The notes below the pieces were generated by a model. The model was not told the origin of the DNA. It made no database searches and worked only from the letters and a program-made list of their open reading frames with translations. Both the position numbers and the translations under genes were made by a program. From Flavobacteriaceae bacterium (GTDB lineage Bacteria > Bacteroidota > Bacteroidia > Flavobacteriales > Flavobacteriaceae): 64,000 bases of DNA. This document shows positions 3,641 to 40,784 of this stretch, piece after piece. Position 1 is the first letter of the stretch, and each line of letters starts with the position of its first letter. The stretch is from assembly GCA_016649715.1 (NCBI GenBank), contig JAENXC010000003.1, positions 1 through 64,000 on the forward strand, read 5' to 3'.

Positions 3641-3924
3641 ATGGCCGTTTGCTGTATCGCCCCCGCCCCCCGCCAAAACATTCAGGTTAACGCTTCCACC
3701 TACACCCCCCAACAGCTCGTGGAAGATATACTTATAGACAGCGGCTGCATCAGCAACGTCAGGTAACCTCCACGGCAAGCGGCAACTTCCCCGACGCCGA
3801 AAAGAGTTCCGGCTATTTCAGCGCCAGCGGAAGCAAATTTCCTTTCAGCAAAGGCCACCACCAGATTATTGGTTCAGGGCAATCTTCAAAAATGGCAGGA
3901 TTTATCGCGGTCTCTTTGCCTTAA
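3641..3924 (+). pseudogene. Frameshifted fragment of a choice-of-anchor-L surface protein
   Basis: From ATG 3641 one frame gives MAVCCIAPAPRQNIQVNAST and then YTPQQLVEDILIDSGCISNV up to about 3760; after a 2-base shift at 3761-3762 a second frame continues VTSTASGNFPDAEKSSGYFS and ASGSKFPFSKG before ending at TAA 3922. The order (signal-like start, TYTPQQLVEDILI, CISNV, GYF, FPF) is the hallmark N-terminus of choice-of-anchor-L domain proteins, usually large T9SS-exported surface proteins. Only about 90 codons remain, and the last ones no longer match. It is a truncated, frameshifted relic just before the fusion gene. Confidence 0.65.
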
Positions 3925-4024
3925 AACGATGGCTTTCACAATCTTTTCCATTTATACTGTATACACAAGCCGATGGAACCTCAAATTTTCAGTAATTTTG
4001 TTGCCGAAACGTCTCCCAAAAACT

Positions 4025-7000
4025 ATGTCCAATACCACTCCCAAACAAGCTTCACAAATCGCCAGCGAATATTATAATCTAAGTGCCAAAACCTCAAAAC
4101 TTGACGGCTATGATGACGAAAATTTTCTTTTGAAAACCACTTCAGATGAAAAATTTCTCCTGAAAATTTCTTCCGACCTGTCCGCCATTTCGGCGGAAGA
4201 AAATAGGGAAAAACTGGATTTCCAAATTCAAATCCTGAATCATCTTTCAACAAAAAAACTTGCTATTTCACTTTCCGAAATTGTGCCAAACAAAGAAGGA
4301 AAACCGCTTACTAAACTTCAAAATAATAAAACCGCAAGAGTATTAACGTGGCTTCCTGGCCGCCTTTGGGCAACTGTGAACCCAAAAACAGAAAGTTTAC
4401 GAAACAGTTTGGGCGAAGCCGCCAGAAGTTTGACAATGGCTCTCCAAGATTTTGATCATCCCGCTGCGCACAGAAATATCGATTGGGATATAGCAAATTC
4501 CCCTTGGACTTCAAAACATATAAATCGATTCTCAGGAAAGCAAAAGGAGATTGTGCAACATTTTCAAAACCGTTTTGAAGAAATTCAATCTACTTATAAA
4601 ATCCTTCCGAAGAGCATCGTCCACAATGATTTGAACGATTACAATATTTTAGTTTCCGAAGATTTAAACAATCCAAAAGTTTCAGGTTTTATAGACTTTG
4701 GAGATTCGGTCTTCACCCAAACCATCAACGACCTCGCCATTGTTTTGGCATATGCAATTATGGACCTTCCCGATCCGCTTTCAGCAGCTTTGGAAGTTAT
4801 AAAGGGTTATAACAAACACTACAAACTTTCAGAAAAGGAACTGGAATGTCTGTACATTTTAACAGGAATGCGCCTCGTTACAACCGTTGCGAACGCTTCG
4901 CTTAAAAAAGAGGAATTTCCAAATGACGACTATTTCGTAATCAGCGAAAAACCCGCGTGGGATCTGCTCGAGAAATGGTTTAATGTGAATGAAAATTTCG
5001 CCTATTACTCCTTCCGAAATGCTTGCGGTTATTCAGCACATCCATTGGAAAAGAAATTTGTAAACTGGACAAAAAACAATCAAGTCTCCATAAAAACAAT
5101 GTTTCCAATGGTCGCTTTTGAAAAAATAGTGAATCTCGATATGAGCGTTGGAGGCACCTTGCTTGGCAATCAATCAGAATACAACGATCCCGAAGTTTCA
5201 GAATTTAAATTGAAACAATTCCGAAAACACCATCCCAAAACCATTTTGCTGAATGGCTATTTGGAAGCCCGCCCTTTTTATACCACCGAAGCTTTTAAAA
5301 GCGAAGGCAACAATGGCCCGCAATACCGAACTGTACATTTGGGAACCGATTTTTGGGTGCCAGCAAAAACACCCGTGCAAGCACCATTTGATGGCATTGT
5401 AAAAATTATCCATCACAACAATTACGATAAGGATTACGGCCCGATGCTCATCTTGGAACACACTTTTAAAGGCGGAAAATTCTACTCACTTTACGGCCAT
5501 TTGTCGCTAATGTCATTGAAAATTTTAAAAGTTGGGCAGAAGGTAAAACAAGGCGACCGGATCGCTTACATCGGCAAGCCAAATGAAAATGGCAATTGGG
5601 CACCGCATCTTCATTTTCAATTAATTTTGGATTTGTTGGGCAATAACGAAAACTTCAACGGCGTAGCTTTCCCTTCAAAAGTTGAAATCTGGAAAAGCCT
5701 TTGTCCAAACCCAAATCTTATTTTTAAAGAGGAATTGATTACTTCTAAAGAAAGAATTTCCGACCTATCCGCCAATTCGGTGGAAGAAAAAATTATCAAT
5801 TTCAGAAAAGATCATCTCGGAAAAGGTTTGAGTCTTTCCTATGACAAACCATTGCACATCGTCCGTGGTGAAGATGTTTATTTGATTGATATTGAAGGAA
5901 GAAAATATCTGGACACCGTAAACAACGTTAACCACGTGGGCCATCAGCACCCTAAAGTGGTTGCGGCCGGACAAAAGCAAATGGCGGTTTTGAATACCAA
6001 CACCCGTTATCTGCACGAAGAAATTATCGCCTACGCCGAAGCTTTACTAAAAAAACTCCCGCCACATTTATCTGTTATTCATATTGTGAATTCCGGTAGC
6101 GAAGCCAACGAGCTCGCGCTGCGAATGGTAAAAACCGTCACAGGCAACAAAGATATTTTGGCAATTGAAGTAGGTTATCACGGCAACACAAATGCCGTGA
6201 TGGACGTGAGTTCCTATAAATTTGAAGGCGAAGGCGGTTTTCCAAAGCCCGAAACAACGCATATTCTTCCGCTTCCAGATTCTTTTAGAGGAAAATATTC
6301 AGGAGCAGATTGTGGAATTGATTACGCCAACCACGCCAAGGAAATTATTCAAAATTTAAAAGTTGAAGGCAAGAAAATAGCAGGTTTTATCGGTGAAACC
6401 ATGATTAGTTGCGGCGGACAGATTGTTCCACCCAAAAATTATTTCAAAGAAGTTTATAAACACGTTCACGAAGCAGGCGGAATCTGTATTGCTGACGAAG
6501 TGCAAACAGGTTTCGGACGGATGGGCAAAACCTTTTGGGCGTTTGAACTTTACGACGTTCAGCCAGATATTGTAACTATGGGCAAGCCTGCCGGAAACGG
6601 ACATCCTCTCGCTGTGGTTGCTTGCACAAAAGAAGTTGCCGAAAAATTCAATACGGGAATGGAGTATTTCAACACCTTTGGTGGGAATCCCGTTTCCTGT
6701 GCTATTGGCCGCGCGGTTTTGGAGGTTATTGAAACGGAAAATTTGCAGCAAAACGCTTTGGAAGTGGGTGGTTATTTAAATAAGGAATTAAAAAATCTAC
6801 AAAAAATATTTCCAATAATTGGAGACGTTCGTGGCGAAGGTTTATTTTTAGGGTTTGAACTAAATGATTCAGAAAAGAACCCATTGCCGGAATACGCTTC
6901 CTATTTAGCCAACAGAATGAAACAACTCGGAATTTTAATGAGCATTGACGGCCCAGACCACAACGTTTTAAAAATTAAACCGCCAATGGTTTTCAGCAAA

Positions 7001-7069
7001 GTGAACGCAGAAGAGCTTATCTTTAGGTTGAAAACCGTTTTTGCGGAGGATTTTCTGTTTTTAAATTAA
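4025..7069 (+). CDS. Kinase / M23 peptidase / class-III aminotransferase fusion
   Basis: A 1014-residue three-domain protein. Residues 1-350: APH/choline-kinase fold with catalytic HNDLNDYN (from H200) and the metal motif IDFGD (D224). Residues about 400-570: M23 metallopeptidase with all expected zinc and catalytic groups (HLGTD, H438 and D442; YGH, H492; HLH, H528/H530). Residues 590-1014: class-III aminotransferase fold with ADEVQ (D824) and PLP lysine K854 in [10 protein letters not shown]. That last motif matches the eukaryotic ethanolamine-phosphate and phosphohydroxylysine phospho-lyases; hydroxylysine kinase is an APH-family enzyme, so kinase plus phospholyase acting on hydroxylysine or a similar amino alcohol is the inferred chemistry. 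The role of the peptidase domain is unclear. I chose ATG 4025 because the upstream in-frame part encodes pseudogene debris. Two palindromes lie in frame at 4169 and 5757. Confidence 0.88.
4169..4203. repeat. In-frame palindromic element, copy A ([10 protein letters not shown])
   Basis: TTTCTTCCG and CGGAAGAAA arms enclose an inner TCCGCC/GGCGGA pair. It lies in the kinase domain of the fusion gene and is read as [10 protein letters not shown]. Closely related copies are at 5757-5790 and, on the other strand, 33795-33833. Confidence 0.7.
5757..5790. repeat. In-frame palindromic element, copy B ([10 protein letters not shown])
   Basis: Second copy of the element in the same gene, read in the same codon phase as [10 protein letters not shown]. 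It sits in the linker between the peptidase and aminotransferase domains. Confidence 0.7.
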
Positions 7070-7076
7070 TATTAAA

Positions 7077-7098
7077 CTCTCTGTGTTCTCTGTGCCTC
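7077..7098. repeat. Left half of a palindrome split by IS110
   Basis: CTCTGTGTTCTCTGTGCCTC ends abruptly here. Joined to the sequence after the IS element (from 8464) it restores a perfect 17-bp hairpin arm, which marks the left insertion boundary. Confidence 0.8.
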
Positions 7099-7103
7099 CT
7101 ATG

Positions 7104-7357
7104 TTTACATTTTGATTAAATTGTCATTACAAATGTAGACATAAAGTGAAAAGGATGAGAGCAGATTTGTGCCTAAATAGCTCGATGAAGTATATTCTCG
7201 CAGAGAAATTGCCTCATTCTTTTTTTATCTTTTAGAGTTTGAACAGAATGTAAGGAATGGCGCTCAGCTCCATATCCAGAATATCCGACCAGGAGAAAAA
7301 ACGAGGGGATATCTATCACTTTATGTTATTAAATAACCATAGGATGGAGAAGATATT
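7104..7357 (+). ncRNA. Putative IS110 bridge RNA
   Basis: Three structured parts are visible in the order known for IS621. A 5' stem-loop (TACATTT 7105-7111 with AAATGTA 7131-7137). A target loop closed by GATGAG-GCA-ATTT (from 7154) with AAATTGCCTCATTC (to 7219), holding UUUGUGCCU (7166-7174), which matches the left target plus core, and UCGCAGAG (7198-7205), which pairs with the right target CTCTGTGG over eight positions with two wobbles. A donor loop closed by TATCTTTT with AGAAGATA, holding ACAGAAT (7243-7249), which matches the right end, and CATAGGA (7338-7344), complementary to the left end. The 3' limit overlaps the transposase start. No transcription evidence is available. Confidence 0.65.
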
Positions 7358-8423
7358 AAAACAAGTATTGGGAGTTGATGTGGACCAAAAGAATCTGGTT
7401 GTCACATTGGGAAGATTAACAGAAGACCTAACCGTTGAGCTATATGCCCACAAGGTATTTGCCAACAATAAAAAAGGGTTCCTTTCTCTTTTGAAGTGGG
7501 TAAATTCTTTAACGGATCGTTCAATTTCATTCCAAATTGTAATGGAGGCCACAGGAGTCTATCATGAAAGTTTCGCATACTTTCTTGACGAAAAAGGATA
7601 TGCCCTTAGCGTAGTGCTGCCAAACAAGATAAGCAACTATATGCGAACCTTGGACATAAGGACCGTCACGGACAAGAGCTGCTCACAGGCCATTGCCCGT
7701 TTTGGACTGGAGCGCAAACTAGATTGCTGGAAACGCCCCAAGAAGATTTACAAGAGGTTGCAGCAGCTAACCCGCGAGCGTGCCCAGATAATAGATGAGC
7801 GCACCATGGTCAAAAACCAGTTGCACGCAGAAAAGGCAGAGGCCGGCCCAAATAAGAATAGCTTAAAGCGCTTGGAGTCCAGGATTAAGTTCCTCAAAAA
7901 ACAGGATGCCGAGATAATGAAGGAGCTGAACGGATACCTAAAGGAGGATGGCACCTTGGCCCAACAAGTAAAAAGGATAACAACAATACCCGGTGTGGGC
8001 GAATTAACGGCGATGACAGTTCTGGCGGAGACCAATGGTTTTGAGCTTATACGGAACAAAAGACAGTTGACCAGTTATGCTGGACTGGACGTAAAGGAAA
8101 AATTGTCGGGCACATCAGTCCATAAAAAACCAAAAATATCCAAACAGGGTAATAGAAATCTTAGAAAAGCTATGTATTTTCCTGCGATCACGGCTATTAA
8201 ACACAATACGAACCAAAAGGACCTCTATGAACGGGTTACCAATAAAAATGGGATTAAAATGAAGGGTCTGGTAGCAGTACAACGAAAACTATTGGAACTG
8301 ATTTACACCATCTATAAAAACGAAACAGTCTTTGATCCCGAATACGAAAATAGCGTGACCACCAAAAAAGCAGTACACGCTATACAAACTGGCTCAAAGG
8401 CCGTTTTAGAAATACAAATATAA
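7344..8423 (+). CDS. IS110-family transposase (DEDD recombinase)
   Basis: A 359-residue transposase. The N-terminal RuvC-like DEDD domain shows GVDVDQKN near residue 10 and MEATGVYHE near residue 70; the C-terminal Transposase_20 domain shows IPGVGELTAMTVLAET, LTSYAGLDVKE and SKQGNRNLRKAMY, with a coiled coil between them. Intact length suggests it is functional. I start at ATG 7344 because the product then begins directly before the first catalytic motif; the in-frame ATG at 7257 would add 29 residues translated from the structured noncoding region. Confidence 0.9.
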   Translation: MEKILKQVLGVDVDQKNLVVTLGRLTEDLTVELYAHKVFANNKKGFLSLLKWVNSLTDRSISFQIVMEATGVYHESFAYFLDEKGYALSVVLPNKISNYMRTLDIRTVTDKSCSQAIARFGLERKLDCWKRPKKIYKRLQQLTRERAQIIDERTMVKNQLHAEKAEAGPNKNSLKRLESRIKFLKKQDAEIMKELNGYLKEDGTLAQQVKRITTIPGVGELTAMTVLAETNGFELIRNKRQLTSYAGLDVKEKLSGTSVHKKPKISKQGNRNLRKAMYFPAITAIKHNTNQKDLYERVTNKNGIKMKGLVAVQRKLLELIYTIYKNETVFDPEYENSVTTKKAVHAIQTGSKAVLEIQI

Positions 8424-8463
8424 AAAATAATTAAATTTTTCCTTTTATATTAACACAGAATCT

Positions 8464-8510
8464 CTGTGGTTATTATTTTTTTACCACAGAGGCACAGAGA
8501 GCACAAAGCT
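8464..8510. repeat. Right half of the IS-split palindromic hairpin
   Basis: After the IS, CTGTGGT, a T-rich loop and ACCACAGAGGCACAGAG (8483-8499) follow. With 7088-7097 these restore a hairpin of 17 perfect pairs. It was probably the bidirectional terminator or REP-like repeat between the fusion gene and the next gene. Confidence 0.75.
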
Positions 8511-8524
8511 TAAACAATGTACTT

Positions 8525-8953
8525 ATGAAAAAACTACTGCTACTTTTCTGTCTAATTACAACACTGAATGCTGTTTCCCAAACCGAAACCGCCGATAAAA
8601 AAGCAATCCTTTCCGTATTAAAAACACAGGAAAACGCGTGGAACCAAAACGATCTCGAAAGTTTTATGCAAGGCTATTGGAAAAGTGATTCCTTGAAATT
8701 CTACGGTAGCAAAGGAGTTACAACCGGTTGGCAAAAAACGTTGGACAACTACAAAAAAGGATATCCTTCAAAAGAATACACTGGAACTTTAAGTTTCACA
8801 ATTGAAGCAATTACTAAAATTGAGGAAAATTCATATTATGTAATGGGTCAATTCCACTTGGTTCGGGATGCGGGAAATGCAAACGGAGTTTTCCTTATTA
8901 TCTTCAGAAAAATTGAAGGAGAGTGGAAAATTATTGCAGATTTAAGCTGCTGA
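8525..8953 (+). CDS. Secreted SnoaL/DUF4440-like (NTF2-fold) protein
   Basis: A 142-residue protein with a signal peptide (MKKLLLLFCLITTLNAVSQ) followed by an NTF2/SnoaL-like fold: KKAILSVLKTQENAWNQNDL, then GYWKSDSLKFYG, YSKEYTGTLSF-type strands and a closing IFRKIEGEWKIIADLS. The family binds small ligands or acts as a steroid-isomerase-like cup; no substrate can be inferred. Cleaved after SQ, it would be periplasmic. It stands alone, followed by a strong hairpin terminator shared with the convergent gene. Confidence 0.75.
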   Translation: MKKLLLLFCLITTLNAVSQTETADKKAILSVLKTQENAWNQNDLESFMQGYWKSDSLKFYGSKGVTTGWQKTLDNYKKGYPSKEYTGTLSFTIEAITKIEENSYYVMGQFHLVRDAGNANGVFLIIFRKIEGEWKIIADLSC

Positions 8954-26199: not shown

Positions 26200-26720
26200 G
26201 AATACAATTGGGAATTACCCAAATTCCTGTTGTGATTGGGGCGAGATAATTCCGTATTGGTTTTAGGGGAGGATTTTGGCTTTTATTGCGAAAGGGAAGC
26301 TCGTTTTTTTTTCTGTTATACAAATTCATTAGTGGGTATTAATAAAGGTATTTTTGGCGTATCTATATATCTAATTTGTTATTCATATACTATAAACATA
26401 CTTTAGATATCCTATACATATACTATATACAATCTATAAACATTATGTATAAATGATTAATAAGGACCATATCTGCAATCGGTTCCCACCGTTTTTTAAT
26501 GATTGAGCTTATTTTTTAAATAGCTTTCCAACATAACCCAATTTTTTTCTTCTATCTGCAAAAGACTTTAGTAGAGTTTAATGACTTTTCTCTGGGCGTT
26601 AAGGGAGGATTGGAGGTGAGAATTATCTGCTGATCTATTTAAAAGATTTTGACAGCAGTTTAGAAAAGAAATTATCACTTTTTTGCATTTATATTCTTAA
26701 ATTTGAATATTCATTACGAA

Positions 26721-26764
26721 CCTCTTATAGGGGTAGCAACCTGCCAAAACAGGCGAAGGTGCTA
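26721..26764 (+). ncRNA. Structured element resembling part of an S-box (SAM-I) fold
   Basis: TAGCAACCTGCC and GGCGAAGGTGCTA form a stem with a CCAAAACA loop, preceded by CGAACCTCTTATAGGGG. The GCAACC...AGGTGC arrangement matches the P3 arm of SAM-I riboswitches, but the kink-turn and P1 parts are not recognisable. It may be a relic or an unrelated hairpin. Confidence 0.25.
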
Positions 26765-26851
26765 AAACAATGAGCCTAACCAAGGAAAAATATGTTATCA
26801 CCTACTAAAGAGTTTTTTATTGTAAAGCGATTATTTAATTGAAACCTAATT

Positions 26852-40736: not shown

Positions 40737-40784
40737 CCGTCCTTAATAACCGGGGTCGGGAACCCCAAAAATTAATTCTAAAAT

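Follow-up and report, generated by a model that had tools for sequence, protein, structure and literature searches.

In the IS110 element IS621, a recombinase with a RuvC-like domain and a serine-bearing Tnp domain acts together with a bispecific bridge RNA, which is encoded in the left end of the insertion sequence (IS), upstream of the gene (PMC11208160; PMC11208158). As described in these reports, the 177-nt RNA is composed of a 5' stem-loop, a target loop (nt 34-98) and a donor loop (nt 110-177); its left guides read the bottom strand and its right guides the top strand, the core dinucleotide is CT, the stems carry a bulged A, the right donor guide pairs discontiguously and palindromic repeats are used as targets. 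In ISEc21, an element of the same type, the upstream noncoding region gives a seekRNA in which the bottom-strand match comes before the top-strand match; natural redirection between relatives has been reported, and the target is a linear one inside IS3-family genes (PMC11187229). The present analysis concerns an IS110-type insertion sequence located at positions 7098-8461 of the first 64,000 nucleotides of contig JAENXC010000003.1 (assembly GCA_016649715.1, Flavobacteriaceae bacterium). This whole stretch is referred to below as the window, and all its coordinates are those of the + strand. With a probability of roughly 0.93, the 5' noncoding region of the element encodes an IS110 bridge RNA, made of a closing helix (P1), a target loop, and a donor loop carrying the guides ACAGAAU and AGGAG, which would direct an IS621-like recombination.

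As judged from sequence, the kind of system is known (an IS110 bridge RNA, with a protein homologous over nearly its whole length) and the clade to which the element belongs is a variant of it. As in IS621, the target loop precedes the donor loop, and each is formed by a stem, an internal loop and an inner hairpin; the target loop carries first a left and then a right guide, reading the bottom and then the top strand and covarying with the site, and the donor guides match the element's own ends. A CT core at both ends and a long noncoding region upstream, not downstream, of the gene are traits of the IS110 group, whereas in the IS1111 group this region lies downstream and the top-strand guide comes first. 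The departures from IS621 concern the sequence identity, which is 24-26% in the structure matches, the fourth residue of the DEDD motif, which is C, A or S in the clade, the right donor guide, which pairs contiguously (AGGAG:CTCCT), and the global fold, in which an outer helix closes both loops and no conserved 5' stem-loop is found. ISCro4 (PDB 9t56) is the best match in sequence and fold among solved structures, but it retains D at the catalytic position in question (TDAVDAR). Since a strict DEDD tetrad and a conserved 5' stem-loop are both lacking, the element is filed as an IS621-type variant and not as a typical member. An initial annotation of this DNA had proposed that the element has a naturally occurring, bispecific bridge RNA whose target can be read off and whose guides follow the order and strand sense of IS110, and the covariation and the fold presented below strongly support this proposal. 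The dispersed palindromic target, the long-range closing helix and the recombinase without the fourth DEDD acid are features beyond that annotation.

The element begins with CCTATG (the right donor, 7098-7103) and ends with ACAGAAT (the left donor, 8455-8461), and is flanked by a left (7096-7097) and a right (8462-8463) copy of the CT core; by inspection, no long terminal inverted repeat was seen at these ends. The noncoding region upstream of the gene spans 246 bases (7098-7343), and 38 bases separate the stop codon from the right end. A DNA search found one copy in its own genome, and a family search of the same genome returned one protein. Relatives were collected by a contig scan, which gave 32 loci at 54-69% identity, and by searching genomes of the family (299) and of the phylum (395), which added more; a plasmid search returned only relatives below 60% identity. 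These relatives, together with a flavobacterial S16 leader match in the window, point to a Bacteroidota host, probably one of the Flavobacteriaceae. The clade comprises loci at no less than 53% identity, counted as loci and not as species (two genomes contribute two loci each, and at some loci the frame is broken). When the relatives were aligned without selection, the left end CTCCTATGTT, which includes CCTATG, was present in 30 of 31 relatives, the record of L027 starting too late to show it; the rows of later alignments were selected for having this end. Of 35 rows, 27 have the right end AACACAGAAT; among the remaining eight, five records stop earlier, while L023, L026 and L027 have no exact copy. 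As the insertion points are fixed by these conserved ends, they are independent of the target guides. In the leader of L005 a short tandem duplication of the left end (CTATGTTTGCAAAGTAATTAATT) was observed.

The left target guide, UUUGUGC followed by the core CU, lies at 7166-7174 (UUUGUGCCU) and the right target guide UCGCAGAG at 7198-7205, as the initial annotation had placed them. The left target TCTGTGC (7089-7095) pairs with the former at seven of seven positions, wobble included, and the first five positions of the right target CTGTGG (8464-8469) pair 5/5 with the latter, wobble allowed. Taken alone, the window's element pairs at all 17 target-guide positions when wobble is allowed, a score reached by none of 5000 base shuffles of its leader; the best shuffle reached 16, so that one sequence gives only moderate conviction and the argument depends on the comparative test. 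For this test the guides were cut by alignment columns and the flanks by the conserved ends; 36 loci entered and 35 rows were kept (L036 was dropped by the donor-guide pattern, and the record of L027 lacks the ends), identical pairs being counted once. The right guide pairs at 102 of 105 non-core positions (99 exactly) over 21 distinct pairs, against a mean of 54.7 (standard deviation, sd, 5.0; maximum 76) for shuffled partners, and the observed value was reached in 0 of 50,000 shuffles. For the left guide, with 33 distinct pairs, 152 of 231 positions pair at zero offset (shuffled 108.5, sd 6.8, 0/50,000), and 196 when the best shift of 0-2 bases is allowed (shuffled 140.8, sd 5.2, maximum 163, 0/50,000). 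Relatives carry differing guides, each matching its own site, and guides and insertion sites do covary. On this comparison, misfits of the right guide are very rare; the left guide is looser and sometimes off by an inserted or lost base. Directly after the right target guide, 34 of 35 rows have an A, the base expected of a handshake guide to the donor T; given that the donor T is constant, this A is consistent with such a role and does not test it. The 21 right and 33 left pairs form a natural guide-target series, in which targets can be read from sequence.

A different explanation is that the leader is an ordinary structured 5' untranslated region or regulatory leader of the transposase gene, the guide matches being coincidences or leftovers of targets. 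The leader does lie directly upstream of the gene, and its shuffles come as close as 16/17; however, the loop guides vary in step with their own targets far beyond what shuffles produce, and the stems described below are conserved by compensation, so that this explanation is scarcely credible.

ISPpu9 is a member of IS110. Insertion into dispersed palindromic repeats has been described for this and other IS110-type elements found in repetitive extragenic palindromic (REP) sequences (PMC8450116; PMC1525189), in other hosts (Pseudomonas and others) and in other repeats. Here the target is likewise a dispersed palindrome, unlike the linear target of ISEc21, and it belongs to a Bacteroidota repeat family that would be read by changeable guides. 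The joined flanks of the window's element read TCTGTGC-CT-CTGTGG within a palindromic repeat, the left part of which (CTCTGTGTTCTCTGTGCCT...) lies at 7079-7097 and the rest, with the loop and the second arm, at 8464-8504. Its own genome holds 31 matches to CTCTGTGCCTCTGTGG with up to two mismatches, the hairpin arms being counted apart, and the reversed control gave 0; eight matches are exact, one of them being the second arm at the insertion itself, and many of the printed copies show both arms. The dispersed repeat has the form CTCTGTGNNCTCTGTGCCTCTGTGGT-loop-ACCACAGAGGCACAGAG, for instance at 7079-7097 with 8464-8504 in the window and at loci L064-L093.

Some part of the downstream flank was matched in every one of the 28 genomes available for the genus, the element's own among them; in G320 the match is confined to the repeat. 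In a congener (L095) the palindrome is intact and unoccupied, with a single CT, before the same downstream gene; a diverged palindrome lies between the same two genes in L096, and another diverged one is present in L111. Among the seven orthologous regions read, no palindrome was found in L097, L099 and L104, and L101 was uninformative. The empty site and its single core are consistent with a circular intermediate in which right end and left end (RE-LE) are joined. A further case is the genome of another relative, G325, where five copies identical over 1400 bp all lie at GGCTGT-CT-AAAAAGG, matched by both guides, and where nine exact copies of the 19-base target are unoccupied. Eight further host genomes were searched with one generic repeat of the CTTTGCG type, instead of the particular target of each element, and the match counts (genome/control) were 143/11, 99/3, 27/3, 23/5, 49/11, 21/8, 7/2 and 6/2; the repeat was counted as enriched in six of the eight, the other two having few copies. 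These observations suggest that the guides of the clade change so as to follow the repeats dispersed in its host genomes.

The fold was examined in an alignment of 33 leaders, the window included. Rows had been picked for carrying the left end as well as the left donor guide, hence these columns are conserved by choice, and L009, L016, L033, L027 and L115 were excluded. RNAalifold, run without a given structure, returned the target loop and the donor loop, each consisting of a stem and an inner hairpin, with 40 pairs, 30 of which show compensatory changes. Four of the 40 were left uncounted, namely one weak hairpin pair and three invariant pairs that would tie up the right donor guide. Over the 36 counted pairs, 97.4% of the cells are paired, against 85.7% in shuffles and 44-55% when the strands were slid; 29 pairs are changed on both sides (15.0 in shuffles), and compensatory cells number 176 (47.9 in shuffles). 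The consensus was derived from the same alignment used for counting, which favours the structure, and the count of compensatory cells is still far outside the controls. The 33 leaders share the two loops with covariation, and the leader of the window by itself folds better than its shuffles (z -2.59), only one of 200 being equally good.

The target-binding loop occupies 7151-7221, with a lower stem formed by about 7151-7162 and 7211-7221, in which 8 of 12 consensus pairs are compensatory and A7160 is bulged; the foot of this stem was drawn by hand and is slightly unlike the consensus. Its inner hairpin (7176-7196) pairs 7176-7182 with 7189-7196 around a bulged A7192, and all seven pairs are compensatory with 100% of the cells paired. 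The donor-binding loop (7227-7312) is closed by a stem of 7227-7233 with 7306-7312, where four of six consensus pairs are compensatory and the window has one C-U mismatch, and contains a three-pair helix further in, with two compensatory pairs; in its inner hairpin (7254-7277), 7254-7260 pairs with 7270-7277 around a bulged A7274, and eight of eight pairs are compensatory. The bulged A7160, A7192 and A7274 are invariant in the 33 rows, and a fourth A, in the lower donor stem, was not assigned. They resemble the flipped-out A nucleotides described for IS621, to which they may be equivalent by position only.

Both loops are enclosed by P1, whose 5' strand (GACAUAAAGUGA, 7138-7149) pairs with the 3' strand at 7316-7327 (UCACUUUAUGUU); the helix is present in the window's own fold and is not shown by RNAalifold; its strands are shifted in the alignment. 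In a strand-swap test on the 33 sequences, own strands paired with a mean of -10.82 kcal/mol, against -8.15 (sd 0.33) for swapped partners, the observed value being reached in 0 of 20,000 swaps, and -4.97 for shuffled strands. Furthermore, the pairs covary, as in AGUGA/UCACU, AAUUGA/UCAAUU and AAGAUGA/UCAUCUU. The box TAnnTTTG occurs in 23 of the 33 leaders just upstream of P1, at 20-25 bases ahead of the target stem. This count omits three rows whose match is the left end itself; shuffles would give 1.8 over the whole 45-base stretch that was searched. This box we take to be the -7 box of Bacteroidota promoters; if so, the RNA would begin at P1 and its two ends would pair together. At the place where the leaders of relatives carry the box, the window has a private hairpin (7106-7137).

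The left donor guide ACAGAAU (7243-7249) is identical to the right end of the element (8455-8461), as the initial annotation had noted, and 31 of the 32 rows in the unselected alignment carry it exactly, L027 having one inserted A; later alignments were selected with a pattern that includes this guide. The right donor guide is AGGAG (7291-7295), which pairs with the core CT and the CCT of the left end. It lies outside the row-selection pattern and is invariant in the 33 rows except for one A to G change. In sister clades, the left end and this guide change together: CTCGTAT occurs with AUACGAG (L118) or AUGCGAG (L038, L039, L040, L041), and CTCATAT with AUGAG (L121); in L120, UAUGAG stands beside a CTCATAT taken as its left end, and L119 shows no recognisable left end.

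Three of the four guides first proposed were kept, and the fourth was replaced. In the drawing of the initial annotation, the RNA has a 5' stem-loop, CATAGGA (7338-7344) serves as the right donor guide and the donor loop reaches into the start codon, an overlap that may couple RNA and protein expression. CATAGGA is an exact seven-base complement of the window's left end and the 5' hairpin at 7106-7137 is part of the window's minimum-energy fold, yet this drawing is very improbable. CATAGGA is private to the window, being found in 0 of 32 other aligned leaders with a best match of 5/7, and it lies outside both the covarying donor stem and P1, whereas AGGAG hardly varies and, in sister clades, changes along with the left end. 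The hairpin is predicted in the window alone, without any consensus pair in columns 1-88, where the alignment is gappy. The donor loop does not overlap the start codon: its stem closes at 7312, 32 bases before the homologous ATG at 7344. An open reading frame (ORF) starting at 7257 was also considered: in 23 of 27 relatives the 29 codons that precede the homologous start contain an in-frame stop, which makes translation from the ATG at 7257 unlikely. The clade offers a bridge RNA with a different global fold, as well as a correction for locating the right donor guide.

Several points weigh against a bridge RNA of the IS621 type at this locus. At zero offset the left target guide pairs at only 66% of positions over the 33 pairs, and 12 elements reach three of seven or fewer; eight of these rise to six or seven when shifted, and the left guides of L010, L026, L028 and L029 stay at 4-5 even with a shift of one or two bases. 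L036, scored separately, gives 4/7 on the left, with 5/5 on the right. The shuffle tests of the guides ignore relatedness. In the donor loop, the left guide reads GU where the core is CT, which leaves the core C unmatched, the right guide pairs contiguously over only five positions in the clade, and RNAalifold pairs the GGA of the latter with an invariant nearby UCC inside the RNA. Rfam gave no match at the element, either at the gathering score over the whole window or at E-values up to 5 in 6900-8700. Finally, the window's copy has no exact TAnnTTTG box and may be weakly expressed, and this single-copy element gives no sign that it moves. Even so, the comparison of guides, sites and stems among relatives argues that the bridge RNA is real.

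Provided that the leader is transcribed, the mechanism would be the following. P1 would tie together the two ends of the bridge RNA; the guides of the target loop would read the left and right halves of TCTGTGC-CT-CTGTGG in the palindromic repeat, and in the donor loop ACAGAAU would read the right end of the element itself and AGGAG its left end. The recombinase, with its RuvC-like domain and its serine-bearing Tnp domain, would bind both loops; in the target and in the RE-LE circle junction alike, it would cut the top strand after the CT core. The strands would then be swapped and the junction resolved, as shown for IS621; the window's own copy, if active, would presumably follow the same path.

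The recombinase is a protein of 359 residues (7344-8423), whose start is set by homology and by the upstream stops of relatives. In the longer ORF of 388 residues, Pfam PF01548 (DEDD_Tnp_IS110, RuvC-like) scores 71.5 bits (cut-off 29) and PF02371 (Transposase_20) 82.4 bits (cut-off 21.3); the former scores 73.4 bits in the genome search. By sequence comparison, ISCro4 and IS621 are the only solved structures matched with meaningful E-values, and the 11 best fold matches of an AlphaFold2 model (mean predicted local distance difference test score, pLDDT, 82.9) are chains of these two. D12, E68, D110 and S255 are kept, and the position of IS621 D105 is occupied by C113, so that the D-E-D-D tetrad is incomplete. 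This loss of the fourth acid is clade-wide: the residue is C at 24, A at 12 and S at one of the 37 readable clade loci (L046 being unreadable), while outside the clade D is found at 28 of 28 readable loci (L045 being unreadable). D12, E68 and D110 are invariant in 32 aligned clade proteins, and S255 with G256 (the SG serine) in 21 of 21 sequences. A search for a compensating acid showed residues 17, 145, 152, 166 and 252 to be acidic mainly in the clade, and these are candidates only. In the literature searched, which did not cover many journals, preprints, supplements and figures, no report of a fourth-acid variant was found.

In IS621, mutation of D105 abolished recombination both in vitro and in bacteria, and the same residue contacts the metal only through water (PMC11208158). 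The bridge RNAs of the clade might accordingly work while its recombinases are inactive, or are helped in trans by another IS110 recombinase of the cell. Several genomes of the family do carry more than one IS110 protein, frames are broken at the clade loci L023, L024, L026, L028 and L030, and the window's copy is single; against this stand the change shared by all 37 readable loci with the other three acids and the serine kept, the full-length frame retained by most clade loci at 54-69% identity, the water-mediated contact of D105, and the five identical 1400-bp copies in G325. Such a loss or borrowing of activity thus seems unlikely. The five identical copies suggest that elements of the clade move, possibly with help in trans. 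A broader reading, put forward tentatively and at somewhat less than even odds, is that recombinases of this Bacteroidota clade work without the fourth DEDD acid and with a P1-clamped guide RNA, and that, here and in a sister clade, the target loop can be duplicated, the spare loop perhaps retargeting the element, possibly as a trans RNA. These recombinases could serve to test the need for the fourth acid. A seekRNA survey kept sequences containing the DEDD motif (PMC11187229), and such a filter, if strictly applied, would miss the clade; the residue survey in PMC11208160 selected by Pfam domain instead.

Duplicated target loops were observed in two elements of a sister clade, L039 (minus strand) and L040, which are the same two elements as L136 and L135. 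Within about 260 bases upstream of the donor guide, the leader of each of them has two target loops, whose guides were picked by eye and not by alignment, separated by a palindrome (AAGCTAATGCTTTAAAGCATTAGCTT in L039). The right flanks of both fit the extra, upstream loop at 5/5 and the ordinary loop at 3/5, and the left flank of L039 fits the extra loop at 6/7 and the ordinary one at 4/7; the single-loop relative L038 fits its ordinary loop at 7/7 on the left and 5/5 on the right. The left flank of L040, AACACAGTAC-CT, resembles the right end of a like element, that is, two elements or an RE-LE junction abutting. One loop is present in the other readable leaders of this sister clade (L137 to L139, L142, L143 and L145). 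In L115 (minus strand), which belongs to the window's clade, left end and target loop are duplicated in tandem, with a period of 107 and 102 of 107 bases identical; this element was not counted. When the leader of L040 with its two target loops was folded as a single RNA, no signal of stability was obtained (z 0.61). Each IS621 complex draws its two loops from two separate RNA molecules (PMC11208158), and for this reason a spare target loop could act in trans; with three elements, this is a lead and not a result. Duplicated target loops would make the question of target change directly testable.

Elsewhere in the window, a single open frame at 3869-7069 joins phosphotransferase (APH), M23 peptidase and class-III aminotransferase domains. 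Moreover, Rfam matches were obtained for a SAM-I/IV riboswitch at 26706-26801 and for a flavobacterial S16 leader at 40743-40775.

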